Notes under the pieces: model-generated | Told to the model about the DNA's origin: nothing | The model's database searches: none | What the model saw: the letters and a program-made list of their open reading frames with translations, nothing else | Position numbers and translations under genes: made by a program | Shown: in pieces, positions 32,259-37,096 of the stretch | Layout: the number at the start of each line of letters is the position of its first letter | Position numbering within the stretch: the stretch's first letter is position 1 | Assembly (NCBI GenBank): GCA_040388375.1 | Contig: JAZKBU010000003.1 | Location: forward strand, 372,001-436,000 | DNA from: Bacteroidota bacterium | GTDB taxonomy: Bacteria > Bacteroidota > Bacteroidia > UKL13-3 | DNA length: 64,000 nt | Direction: 5' to 3'

Positions 32259-33947
32259 ATGAATACAGAAATAGTAGGTATAGTGGCCATGTTTTTTGTT
32301 ACCTTAATTTTAGCCATTCCATTAGGTAAATATATGGCTAAAGTATATCGAAATGAAGCCACTTTTTTAGATAAAATATTTGCTCCCATAGAAAAAGGCA
32401 TTTTTAAACTAAGTGGTATTGATGCGGCAAAAGAACAAACGTGGAAAGAGCAGTTAAAAGCATTGTTAGGTATTCATTTTCTTTGGTTTTTGTTAGGAAT
32501 GTTTATTTTTATGAATCAGGGATGGTTGCCACTAAATCCCGATCACAACCCTAACCAATCAGCTCACTTAGCTTTTAATACCACTATTTCATTTTTGGTC
32601 AATTGTAATTTGCAACATTATTCGGGAGAAACGGGAGTAAGTTATTTAGGGCAACTATATTTAATGTTTTTACAGTTTGTTACTGCTGCTATAGGTATGG
32701 CTGCTGCAATTACTGTTTTTTATGCATTGCGTAAAGGAACTTATAAAACCCTGGGTAATTTCTATAGTTTTTTTGTTAAGTCGTGCACCCGTATTTTATT
32801 ACCATTATCAACGGTATTGGCATTGTTGTTTTTATTAAATGGTATGCCAATGACTTTTGAAGGCAAACAAGTAATGACAACTTTGCAAGGTGACACCATT
32901 CAAGTAAGTACGGGACCTGTTGCCGCTTTTGTTCCAATTAAACATTTAGGCACCAATGGTGGCGGATTTTTTGGCGCCAATTCTGCGCATCCATTGGAAA
33001 ACACAAACTACTTTACCAATATGCTTGAAATGATAAGTCAAATGCTTATTCCATTTGCCATGGTATTTGCTTTAGGTTATTTCCTGCAGCGCAAAAAATT
33101 AGCATGGACCATTTTTGGTGTAATGACGATAGGTTTTTTAGCATTGGTAGTACCCACTGTTATTACCGAAAGTCAGGGAAATAATGTTATTACTAATATG
33201 GGTATTAGCAATAATGGAGGGGCAATGGAAGGTAAAGAAGTTCGTTTTGGGGCAGCTGCTTCTGCTTATTGGAGTATTGCTACTACTGTTATTTCTACAG
33301 GTTCAGTAAATGCTATGCATGATAGTTTTATGCCTATTTCAAGTATGAATCAATTATTGGCAATGATGACCAATTGTTTTTATGGAGGCTGCGGTGTAGG
33401 TATTTTAAATTATTTCATCTTTATCATTTTGGCCGTATTTATAAGTGGTTTAATGGTTGGCCGTACTCCTGAATTAATGGGTAAAAAAATTGAAGTCAGA
33501 GAAATGAAAATAGCCATGATTATAGCATTGTTACATCCGTTTTTAATATTGACAGGAACAGCTTTGGCAATAATTTTTCCTGAGTTTACAACCAGTACAC
33601 TCAATAATCCTGAGGCACATGGTTTTACAGAAATGCTTTATGAGTACACTTCATCGGCAGCTAATAATGGCAGCGGATTTGAAGGATTAGGAGACAATAC
33701 ACCTTGGTGGAATATAAGTACAGGTATTGTATTAATACTTGCTCGTTTTTTACCCATTATTGGTCCTGTAGCTATTGCCGGAATATTAGCTAACAAAAAA
33801 TATATACCGGAAAATGCAGGCACTTTAAAAACGGATACTGCTACATTCGGTATGATGGTATTAGCCATTATTGTTTTAGTGGCAGCATTATCGTTTTTCC
33901 CCGCATTAACATTGGGTCCAATAACTGAATATTTTTCAATTAAATAA
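32259..33947 (+). CDS. kdpA: KdpA, potassium-channel-like subunit of the K+ ATPase
   Basis: 562 residues, normal for KdpA. It carries the K+ selectivity filter in four pore loops: NTTISFLVNCNLQHYSG, GTNGGGFFGANSAHPLEN, NQLLAMMTNCFYGGCGVG and SSAANNGSGFEGL. Ten membrane helices are evident. It binds K+ and passes it to KdpB for ATP-driven import. Gene order is kdpF-kdpA, but kdpB is 516 bases away because an antisense gene with inverted repeats lies between. Confidence 0.97.
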   Translation: MNTEIVGIVAMFFVTLILAIPLGKYMAKVYRNEATFLDKIFAPIEKGIFKLSGIDAAKEQTWKEQLKALLGIHFLWFLLGMFIFMNQGWLPLNPDHNPNQSAHLAFNTTISFLVNCNLQHYSGETGVSYLGQLYLMFLQFVTAAIGMAAAITVFYALRKGTYKTLGNFYSFFVKSCTRILLPLSTVLALLFLLNGMPMTFEGKQVMTTLQGDTIQVSTGPVAAFVPIKHLGTNGGGFFGANSAHPLENTNYFTNMLEMISQMLIPFAMVFALGYFLQRKKLAWTIFGVMTIGFLALVVPTVITESQGNNVITNMGISNNGGAMEGKEVRFGAAASAYWSIATTVISTGSVNAMHDSFMPISSMNQLLAMMTNCFYGGCGVGILNYFIFIILAVFISGLMVGRTPELMGKKIEVREMKIAMIIALLHPFLILTGTALAIIFPEFTTSTLNNPEAHGFTEMLYEYTSSAANNGSGFEGLGDNTPWWNISTGIVLILARFLPIIGPVAIAGILANKKYIPENAGTLKTDTATFGMMVLAIIVLVAALSFFPALTLGPITEYFSIK

Positions 33948-33981: not shown

Positions 33982-34010
33982 GTGAAATGTGACTTGTAAG
34001 ATGTAAAACG
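33982..34010 (+). repeat. Left inverted repeat of the kdp insertion
   Basis: 29 bases starting GTGAAATGTGACTTG, matching the right arm at 24 of 29 positions. Confidence 0.65.
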
Positions 34011-34044
34011 CTCCTTATTTATATCCAACTTTTATAAAGGAAAC

Positions 34045-34404
34045 TCATGCTTCTTTTTCAAGACTTTTAATTAAACCATAAACTAGTTTACCAATCGTGT
34101 CAAATTTTAAAATAATTAATTCGGACTCATCTTTTTTGATAAATCCCAAATCTGTAGAAAGGAGAATTAGTGTATCTAATTCGGTTAAAGACCCTAGAGA
34201 AATATGTAAAAAGTGTATAAATTCCTTTTTACTTTTTCTAGCAGCTCCTTCAGCAATATTAACGGGGACAGAAACAGCAGCACGTCTGATTTGGGAAACT
34301 AATCCAAATTTTTCTTCAATAGGAAAGTTACTTGTTACCTCATATAATTCTTTAACAATTTCAAAGCTTTTTAGCCAAGCATTTAAATTCTTATGTGGTT
34401 TCAT
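34045..34404 (-). CDS. Four-helix-bundle protein (23S rRNA intervening-sequence/S23 family)
   Basis: 119 residues from the ATG at 34404; the frame extends upstream through the right inverted repeat, but the family starts at MKPHKNLNAW. Family marks are LNAWLKSFEIVKELYEVT, FPIEEKFGLVSQIRRAAVSV, PVNIAEGAARKSKKEFIHFL and a final long helix. These proteins form pentamers and are encoded in 23S rRNA intervening sequences and as isolated genes; a relative (Avd) serves diversity-generating retroelements, but no reverse transcriptase is seen here. It is antisense to the kdp genes, which is unusual. Confidence 0.9.
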   Translation of the reverse strand: MKPHKNLNAWLKSFEIVKELYEVTSNFPIEEKFGLVSQIRRAAVSVPVNIAEGAARKSKKEFIHFLHISLGSLTELDTLILLSTDLGFIKKDESELIILKFDTIGKLVYGLIKSLEKEA

Positions 34405-34431
34405 AATTGATAATTTCTTCAAATCTAAAAC

Positions 34432-34460
34432 CCTTTTACATTTTACAAACAACATTTCAC
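34432..34460 (-). repeat. Right inverted repeat of the kdp insertion
   Basis: Complement begins GTGAAATGTTGTTTGTAAA; partner of 33982-34010. Confidence 0.65.
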
Positions 34461-34463
34461 ATT

Positions 34464-36527
34464 ATGAAAAATAATTTATTTGATAAACCTCTAATGCGGA
34501 AGGCTTTACAACAAGCTTTTGTTAAATTGAATCCTGTTAGTATGTTTCGTAATCCAGTTATGTTTACGGTGCAAATTGGAACAGTAGTTATGTTTTTTGT
34601 ATGTGTTTGGATACTGTTTGGCGAAACTACCCAAGGCAGCTTTGCCTATAATTTAACGGTATTCATCGTTTTATTTCTTACACTTTTGTTTGCAAATTTT
34701 GCCGAAGCTATTGCCGAAGCACGTGGTAAAGCACAAGCCGATAGTTTAAGAAAAACCAGAGAAGAAACACTTGCAAAAGTTATTAAAGCAGAAATGTTAG
34801 ATGTGAAAAGTGAAATGTTAAGTTTATCACAAATACAGCCATCTCACATTTTACAACTTACATCATCACAATTAAAAAAAGGAGATGTGTTTGTATGTGA
34901 AGCGGGTGATACTATTCCTACAGATGGTGAAATTATAGAAGGTTTGGCTACCATAGACGAAAGTGCTATAACAGGTGAAAGTGCTCCCGTTATTCGCGAA
35001 TCGGGAGGCGATAAAAGCTCAGTTACAGGTGGTACCAAAGTATTATCTGATAAAATTAAAGTAGTTGTTACAACTGAAGCTGGAGAAAGTTTTTTAGATA
35101 AAATGATAGCTTTGGTAGAAGGGGCTAGTCGCCAAAAAACACCTAATGAAATTGCGCTCAATATTTTATTAGCAGGTTTTACGCTGGTATTTATTATAGT
35201 TACTGTTACATTAAAACCATTTGCTGATTATGCACATACACCTATTACTATTGCGGCTTTTATCTCCTTGTTCGTATGTTTAATTCCAACCACCATTGGC
35301 GGTTTACTATCAGCTATTGGTATTGCGGGTATGGATAGGGCTTTACGTGCAAACGTAATAACTAAAAGTGGTAAAGCGGTAGAAACAGCTGGTGATGTTG
35401 ATGTATTATTATTAGACAAAACAGGAACCATTACCATTGGTAATAGAAAGGCAACCCATTTTTATCCAACATTTGGCGTAGATGAAAAGCATTTTAAAAA
35501 GTGTGTAGTCCTTAGTTCCATGAGCGATGAAACACCTGAGGGGAAATCAATTATTGAACTGGCTAATATTGATCCTTTAAGTTACCAAATAGAAAATCCT
35601 AAGTTTATAAAGTTTACGGCAGAAACGCGTAGTTCCGGTATTGATTTTGGGCATACTAGAATTAGAAAAGGTGCATCAGATGCTATTAAACACTTGTGTG
35701 AAGAAGCAGGAAATTATTTTCCAAGTGATTCGGCTGAAAAAGTAAAATTGATTTCAAGCAATGGAGGAACACCATTGGTTTTGGCTGAAAACGAAGAGGT
35801 GTTGGGTGTAATAGAATTACAAGATATTATTAAGCCGGGTATTCAAGAACGTTTTGAACGCTTGAGAAAGATGGGTATTAAAACAGTTATGGTTACAGGC
35901 GATAATCCATTAACCGCAAAATTTATAGCTGAAAAAGCAGGAGTAGATGATTTTATAGCTGAAGCAAAACCAGAAGATAAAATGAACTACATCAAAAAAG
36001 AACAAGCGTCAGGAAGACTGGTAGCCATGATGGGAGATGGTACAAACGATGCCCCTGCTTTGGCTCAGGCAGATGTGGGAGTGGCTATGAATAGCGGGAC
36101 ACAAGCAGCTAAAGAGGCAGGCAATATGGTTGATCTTGATAATGATCCAACCAAATTGATTGAAATAGTGGAGATAGGAAAACAATTGTTAATGACAAGA
36201 GGTGCATTGACTACGTTTAGTATAGCTAATGATATAGCTAAATATTTTGCCATTATACCCGCCTTGTTTATCGTGGCTATACCTGCTTTGCGAGCATTAA
36301 ACATAATGAACCTACATAGCCCAGAAAGCGCTATCCTTTCAGCCGTTATATTCAATGCTGTTATTATTCCGGTGCTTATTCCATTGGCACTAAAAGGCAT
36401 TTCGTACAAACCCATTGGCGCAAGTGCTTTGTTACGCAGAAACCTTTTAATTTATGGTTTAGGCGGAGTGGTTATCCCATTTATGGGTATAAAACTTATT
36501 GATATTCTTGTTTCCGTATTTATTTAA
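34464..36527 (+). CDS. kdpB: KdpB, ATP-hydrolysing subunit of the K+ ATPase
   Basis: 687 residues from the ATG at 34464; the frame begins earlier inside the right inverted repeat, but [19 protein letters not shown] is the family start. P-type ATPase motifs are complete: phosphorylation site DKTGT (Asp318), actuator [16 protein letters not shown], nucleotide-binding KGASDAI and hinge [21 protein letters not shown]. It couples ATP hydrolysis to K+ uptake through KdpA. Between KAQADSL and LKKGD it has 13 residues more than the E. coli protein, and the DNA there (about 34790-34869) resembles the inverted repeats flanking the S23 gene. The reading frame is intact. Confidence 0.97.
34801..34869 (+). 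repeat. In-frame palindromic repeat insertion inside kdpB
   Basis: The segment holds GATGTGAAAAGTGAAATG and, after a spacer, TCACATTTTACAACTTAC, whose complement GTAAGTTGTAAAATGTGA resembles the S23-flanking repeat (TTGTAAAATGT core). It encodes [20 protein letters not shown], which replaces and lengthens a non-conserved loop of the actuator region. Confidence 0.45.
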
Positions 36528-36541
36528 AACACACATTTTTT

Positions 36542-37096
36542 ATGAAATCATATATTATTTCAAGCATTAAATTATCTCTTCTTTTAATCATTGTTTTCTC
36601 CGGTATTTATACTGTTTTTATCTGGGGTGTAGCACAATTAATGCCCAATAGTGGAAAGGGTGAAATGATTACACATCAACACAAAACTTTTTATGCCAGT
36701 ATCGGGCAATCGTTTACCAGTGATGCTTATTTTAATGGAAGACCATCAGCGGTGGCATACAATGCTGCAGGTTCAGGTGGTAGCAATAAAGGCCCTAATA
36801 ATGCCGAATACCTTTTACAAGTACAAGCACGAATAGATACTTTTTTAGTACATAATCCAAGTGTACATAAAGAAGAAATTCCTATTGATTTAATTACGGC
36901 AAGTGGAAGTGGTTTAGACCCTCATATATCTATTCAGGCAGCAAAAGTGCAGGTAAAACGCATTGCATTTATACGTAAAATAGATGAGGAGGTTTTGATT
37001 AATTTAATCAATCAGAATACCGAAAAACCATTTCTTGGATTATTCGGTCCAACTAAAATTAATGTGTTAAAATTGAATACAGCGCTTGATAAATAG
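36542..37096 (+). CDS. kdpC: KdpC, accessory subunit of the K+ ATPase
   Basis: 184 residues with one N-terminal membrane helix (LSLLLIIVFSGIYTVFIWGV) and the KdpC signatures QSFTSDAYFNGRPSA, ITASGSGLDPHIS and AAKVQVKRIA, and a C-terminal NVLKLNTAL. KdpC assists ATP binding by KdpB in the complex. It lies 14 bases after kdpB. A short non-coding leader of 91 bases separates it from the porin gene. Confidence 0.96.
   Translation: MKSYIISSIKLSLLLIIVFSGIYTVFIWGVAQLMPNSGKGEMITHQHKTFYASIGQSFTSDAYFNGRPSAVAYNAAGSGGSNKGPNNAEYLLQVQARIDTFLVHNPSVHKEEIPIDLITASGSGLDPHISIQAAKVQVKRIAFIRKIDEEVLINLINQNTEKPFLGLFGPTKINVLKLNTALDK

Follow-up and report, generated by a model that had tools for sequence, protein, structure and literature searches.

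An antisense S23 gene interrupts the kdp operon

In the window (the whole 64-kb stretch of Bacteroidota DNA that was analyzed), a small gene separates kdpA from kdpB, raising the question of what kind of element it belongs to and whether this element is confined to one operon. The initial annotation had described an S23-type gene lying antisense to its neighbours, with inverted-repeat ends, in a unit stopping 3 nt before the kdpB ATG (34464), and all three points were borne out (Table 1). The antisense ORF scored 122.9 bits against PF05635 (23S_rRNA_IVP; curated cut-off 33.8) and 117 against TIGR02436 (four helix bundle protein; cut-off 24), and is a member of this IVP (S23) family. Translation from the inner ATG (34404), the start that resembles those of the family, gives 119 aa (MKPHKNLNAW...); the ORF can be extended to an ATG at 34455, inside the right arm.

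The kdpA-kdpB spacer measures 516 nt, including 34 nt of non-repeat sequence between the kdpA stop (33947) and the left arm. The inverted repeat was computed at 33982-34008 and 34434-34460 (27 nt, 85%) and could be extended by eye to 29 nt, 24 of which match. Each arm consists of four heptamers, and the left and right arms pair in predicted RNA. A degenerate pattern of the arm occurs twice in the window, at the two arms themselves (0 and 1 mismatches; shuffling expectation 0.05), and with few mismatches allowed no copy was found in the genome beyond these two.

Table 1. Features of the kdp locus, in window coordinates
Feature	Position	Strand	Remarks
kdpA	32259..33947	+	upstream cistron; PF03814, E 3e-222
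Left heptad arm, GTGAAAT-GTGACTT-GTAAGAT-GTAAAAC	33982..34010	+	period 7, lag-7 identity 0.70
IVP/S23 four-helix-bundle gene, 119 aa	34045..34404	-	PF05635, E 8e-36; TIGR02436, E 4e-34
Right heptad arm, minus-strand reading GTGAAAT-GTTGTTT-GTAAAAT-GTAAAAG	34432..34460	-	
kdpB	34464..36527	+	downstream cistron; PF00122 + PF00702
In-frame heptad-like hairpin within kdpB	34800..34864	+	arms 34800-34818 / 34846-34864
kdpC	36542..37096	+	PF02669, E 3e-63

A separate hairpin inside kdpB has GTGAAAT-type letters as in the neighbouring element and encodes most of an over-long linker, longer than in every KdpB relative compared; it has apparently landed in coding sequence.

The kdp junction is usually empty in relatives

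The kdp site had been expected to be empty as a rule, and nearly all other bacteria of the class that have kdp indeed show gene-less spacers of 8-177 nt. The expectation that relatives lack the gene thus held for most of them and failed for two species of another family, which carry an antisense IVP gene at the kdp site in the same orientation, 72-73% identical to that of the window. Their copies use the same heptamer family, and a congener of theirs is without the element. KdpA is 68% identical between the window's genome and these two species, so the association of element and operon is about as old as the divergence of kdpA, whether kept by descent or by whole-operon transfer. The sharing of site, orientation and heptad family across families of the class also speaks for a domesticated operon part, a reading to which we return below.

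All S23 genes of the genome share the architecture

Four S23/IVP genes were found in the window's genome, and all four lie between operon genes with paired arms. Of the other three, one separates the two halves of metH, another korA from korB and the third nrdB from nrdA (the nrd names were assigned by reading); all are in sense orientation, each with a different arm sequence. Their proteins are 16-40% identical to that of the window, which indicates that this is not a recently amplified family. The GTGAAATGT...TGTAANATGT repeat had been proposed to flank other S23 genes as well, and none of the others in this genome carries that sequence; what they share with the window's copy is the arrangement of inverted heptad arrays. 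As a genome-wide marker, the repeat was rejected for want of further copies. The kdp copy is best described as a modest and, being antisense, atypical member of a wider class.

A heptad scan of about 462 kb of the genome returned strong two-arm inverted heptad pairs at IVP genes plus one solo hairpin, and with a looser criterion the number of pairs was near chance (28 vs 13). In the same genome, the sufB-sufC junction is taken up by a heptad hairpin of the AGACCAT type without a gene, located just after sufB (L247:19672-19749). At the nrdB-nrdA junction (L238:15155-15914), similar heptad hairpins of about 150 nt with common loops stand on both sides of the IVP gene, a layout that looks like the duplication of a solo hairpin to either side.

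Paired heptad arms characterize S23 elements across phyla

PF05635 genes were present in 39 of 40 relatives, with up to 12 per genome; to our knowledge, they are common small orphans without known function. We collected 175 distinct elements, taking the IVP loci of relatives together with those obtained by scanning genomes of many phyla (orthologous sites are included, and the elements are not independent). The best inverted match between an element's own flanks had a median score of 20, against 10.5 when flanks were paired across elements, and an arm-pair score of at least 14 was reached by 91% of elements and by 14% of the cross-element controls. Other small genes of the window's genome had a median arm-pair score of 11.5, with 24% at 14 or more. 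For the 29 elements outside Bacteroidota, the median was 21 and the corresponding fraction 97%.

Autocorrelation at lags 7, 14 and 21 appeared in both flanks within 120 nt of the gene, and no heptad periodicity was detected in the far 5' flank. Phasing of 189 arm windows yielded the consensus AGTNNNN (EM score 2.24, vs 1.64-1.71 in permuted controls). Each element therefore terminates in inverted arrays of a degenerate heptamer; the variable letters are specific to that element and common to both of its arms. The G-rich polarity of the 5' arm (132 of 149) was rejected as a sign of orientation, because an inverted repeat reads identically from either strand.

The arms are thus tandem units of period 7 that form terminal inverted repeats and, at the same time, the complementary ends of a closing stem. 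Predicted RNA folds of the kdp, kor and metH units were closed by the arms with z-scores of -2.8, -1.1 and -5.8, respectively, modest values that we counted against an RNA-level reading. The pairing is equally that of a DNA palindrome and is no proof that the arms act at the RNA level.

At three loci (L018, L016 and L115), the heptad arrays extend into the start of the downstream gene and are read as peptide repeats, e.g., NHQSPIT. Such N-termini are probably mis-called starts, or else real heptad-coded tails.

Elements occupy stop-start junctions in sense orientation

Among the 169 elements with ORFs on both sides, 143 lie in sense between two co-directional genes, and seven are antisense like the window's copy; the co-directional base rate for genes of the window's genome is 0.47-0.53 by simple ORF calling. 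The upstream stop codon marks the beginning of the 5' arm (median -1.5 nt, 78% within 20 nt), and on the other side a median gap of 10 nt separates the end of the 3' arm from the first ATG in the following ORF. Named from reading the flanking proteins, the host junctions include sufB-sufC, hisH-hisA, serC-serA, fadJ-fadA, fadA-acyl-CoA dehydrogenase, paaA-paaB, korA-korB, metH and sugar-pathway genes. No function common to the host operons emerged from comparison of the proteins flanking the elements. The same arrangement can be seen in published tables for Flavobacterium columnare, between guanylate kinase and nicotinic acid mononucleotide adenylyltransferase (PMC5524665).

Junctions are found empty, full, solo and swapped

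Within one genus, the korA-korB spacer is 454-469 nt in the four genomes that have the element and -1 to 6 nt in four others; in another family, the same junction holds a gene-less heptad hairpin. No target-site duplication could be made out at korA-korB, where the empty sites are 6 nt or overlapping, which may weigh against movement as a DNA element. In two congeners (L214 in G009 and L216 in G003), other small genes, which look like an antitoxin/PIN-type pair by reading, replace the IVP element at korA-korB or stand beside its remains, and one of the two loci retains a heptad arm.

At sufB-sufC, some genomes have a full element, of one of several heptamer types, others a solo hairpin of 91-118 nt belonging to one of two types, and others a bare spacer of 2-32 nt. 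The order sufB-IVP-sufC recurs in several families, as a domesticated part of the operon might. A simple rule, by which the heptamer of a solo hairpin would be that of the full element in its own genome, fits the sufB-sufC junction in G001, G002, G004 and G009. It was nevertheless rejected, as it fails in G000 and in genome-wide counts: G006 has an AGACCAT element and, by the strict pattern, no AGACCAT solo hairpin, and G001 shows the reverse. Solo hairpins at different sites share only the heptamer.

At metH, two IVP lineages were distinguished, one in G000, G001 and G004 (82-87% identical) and another in G006, G009 and G011 (72-83%); they are 29-39% identical to each other, and each set has its own heptamer. 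In four congeners, G007, G005, G003 and G008 (L261, L262, L266 and L267), the junction instead contains an insert with CCACAGAGAACACAAAG / CTCTGTGGTTAA-type repeats. The insert ORF of L261 is a GxxExxY gene (TIGR04256, E 1e-39) and that of L266 reads alike, making this a second kind of gene-plus-repeat cassette at operon junctions. The presence of unrelated IVP lineages and of the GxxExxY insert implies that metH is a repeated landing place.

Gene and arms are inherited together

IVPs less than 40% identical never shared a heptamer at related flanks (0%), and those 60-70% identical did so in 29% of cases at unrelated flanks, against a background below 1%. Arm similarity thus tracks IVP identity and not the site (Mantel r 0.087, permutation sd 0.030), which shows that each gene is passed on as a unit with its arms. 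This linkage alone is not proof of recognition, because linked sequences share descent. The median dN/dS of the IVP was 0.12 (57 pairs), which indicates that the protein works; this conservation is unlike that of cargo and is in line with domestication.

On the IVP tree, site labels cluster (21 changes vs 53 in shuffles), as long residence at given junctions would predict, and branches with strong support require a minimum of two origins at metH and of four at each of the fad junctions, both results coming from few columns with many open forks. Between unrelated sites, the IVP genes of the 175 elements reached at most 76% DNA identity; no two copies were near-identical, and recent transposition between sites was rejected on this ground. 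Movement must then be rare, old or indirect.

Which explanation fits the elements best?

The initial annotation had ventured that a class of S23-carrying small elements might live in mRNAs. Sequence comparison supports such a class and extends it, with arms in 175 elements, the predominant sense orientation, and junctions in empty, full and solo states. The S23 cassette class is real and widespread, and apparently undescribed. We consider it probable that its members are small hitch-hiking elements, made up of an IVP/S23 gene and inverted arrays of an element-specific heptamer, which reside between cistrons as mRNA-borne relatives of the rRNA intervening sequences. More tentatively, and with a good deal of doubt, these may be pan-bacterial intervening sequences of mRNA in which each IVP recognizes its own heptamer by a coevolving code, the elements excising and/or spreading, with solo hairpins mobilized in trans, into stop-start junctions.

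Another explanation is that the units are mobile at the DNA level, as MITE-like heptad palindromes that a Y1 transposase (RAYT/IS200-type) acting in trans, or some other host enzyme, would move, with the IVP as cargo or accessory; their intercistronic position would then reflect selection against all other insertions. Gene-less solo hairpins in the genus, with reversed-pattern controls at zero, are what such movement would leave, and copy numbers of Y1_Tnp and IVP correlate across the 40 genomes with a Spearman coefficient of 0.60 (0.50 outside the genus), although IVP number also correlates with genome size (0.42). Y1_Tnp is not needed for an IVP to be present: G032 has 12 IVP genes and no Y1_Tnp, with G012 and G037 likewise having IVPs without it. 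A heptad-flanked RAYT was looked for and rejected in the single case inspected, a Y1_Tnp gene with no heptad arms around it. Together with the korA-korB sites and the conservation of the IVP, these points make the DNA-level explanation rather unlikely.

Alternatively, the IVP and hairpin may be a domesticated part of the operon, tuning the expression or stability of the flanking cistrons and kept for long at given junctions. The clustering by site, the recurrence at sufB-sufC, the purifying selection and the shared kdp copy noted above all fit. Against this, close relatives are without the element at korA-korB and sufB-sufC, with no obvious replacement at some of these sites, unrelated IVP lineages, and even a GxxExxY insert, take one another's place at the junctions, and the host operons do not share a function; we regard it as unlikely.

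Finally, an arrangement like that of diversity-generating retroelements (DGRs), with the IVP as Avd-like partner of a reverse transcriptase copying the heptad arms, is highly improbable. In its favour, the window's IVP is weakly similar to bAvd, scoring 30 bits where the cut-off is 40, and to DivGenRetAVD, with 31 bits for a cut-off of 80, and PF05635 proteins have been noted in DGR settings (PMC10053308). Against it, a search of the window's genome turned up no RVT_1 gene; the association with reverse transcriptase was rejected there, and for this genome the reading is largely refuted. RVT_1 occurs in only 14 of the 40 genomes, and IVP and reverse transcriptase numbers are uncorrelated (rho -0.04).

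A possible mode of action

Returning to the hitch-hiking element, we infer excision, mobility and heptad recognition as follows. The element would be transcribed with its host operon, which could account for its sense orientation and its tolerance between cistrons. The arms may fold into a long stem, cuttable by RNase III by analogy with rRNA intervening sequences, and cutting would split the operon mRNA into separately translatable pieces. Excision or cleavage between cistrons might be tolerated because each cistron can be translated alone. The IVP would act on its own heptad arms and may be needed for the upkeep or spread of the element. Relatives with solved structures (2rld and 2gsc) have five chains each and form pentamers of four-helix bundles; the net charge of the IVP is near neutral (median +1), not obviously that of a nucleic-acid-binding protein. 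The private heptamer could be kept alike in the two arms by template switching inside the palindrome or by selection for pairing.

PF05635 genes come with their cognate heptad arms, as single units placed in operon junctions, and this gives them a testable function. If the stems are cut in vivo, a hidden mRNA-splitting device is present in many core operons (suf, his, ser, fad, kor, nrd, kdp and metH).

Comparison with known systems

The closest parallel is the rRNA intervening sequence (IVS) with an S23/IVP ORF, as in Leptospira and Coxiella, which has the same protein family, a unit of 400-500 nt and complementary ends enclosing the ORF. In Coxiella, the ends form a 28-bp stem, RNase III excises the S23-bearing IVS, and S23p was reported as decaying (PMC4990558); IVP ORFs are also known from 16S and 23S insertions in CPR bacteria (PMC11270868). 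The elements described here differ in that their host is an operon mRNA between cistrons (here kdpA-kdpB) and not an rRNA gene, in their element-specific heptad arrays as arms, in their solo hairpins, and in the purifying selection on the IVP.

The arms themselves resemble two kinds of heptamer repeat in their period of 7, their intergenic position and their frequent location right before a start codon. One is STRR, the heptamer tandem repeats of cyanobacteria. The other is TAACTGA, found in Beggiatoaceae, Cyanobacteria and some Bacteroidetes, whose reverse complement is a rotation of AGTTATC and fits AGTNNNN (PMC4679880). Judged by sequence, the published TAACTGA repeats may belong to the same class as the heptad arms. 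Unlike the arms, TAACTGA and STRR repeats have been described as direct repeats without an associated gene; the TAACTGA report (PMC4679880) does not describe inverted pairs flanking S23 genes, and the terms S23, intervening and four-helix each have 0 occurrences in it.

Like MITEs and REP-RAYT systems, the elements are short palindromes dispersed in intergenic DNA in full and gene-less versions, but the unit contains no transposase, no target duplication was seen, and the arms are not conserved between elements. With the Avd of DGRs, the IVP has distant sequence similarity and, according to the literature, the four-helix-bundle pentamer in common; it falls below the Avd cut-off, and reverse transcriptase is lacking in the window's genome.

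Published accounts place S23 genes in rRNA (PMC4990558, PMC11270868) or in a DGR context (PMC10053308) and treat heptamer repeats separately (PMC4679880). In the open-access literature, we found no report joining S23 genes with heptamers or describing the intercistronic class; most subscription papers lie outside this scope, and a prior description is possible. The class links the intervening sequences of rRNA with heptamer repeats so far unexplained and with the Avd-like four-helix bundles.
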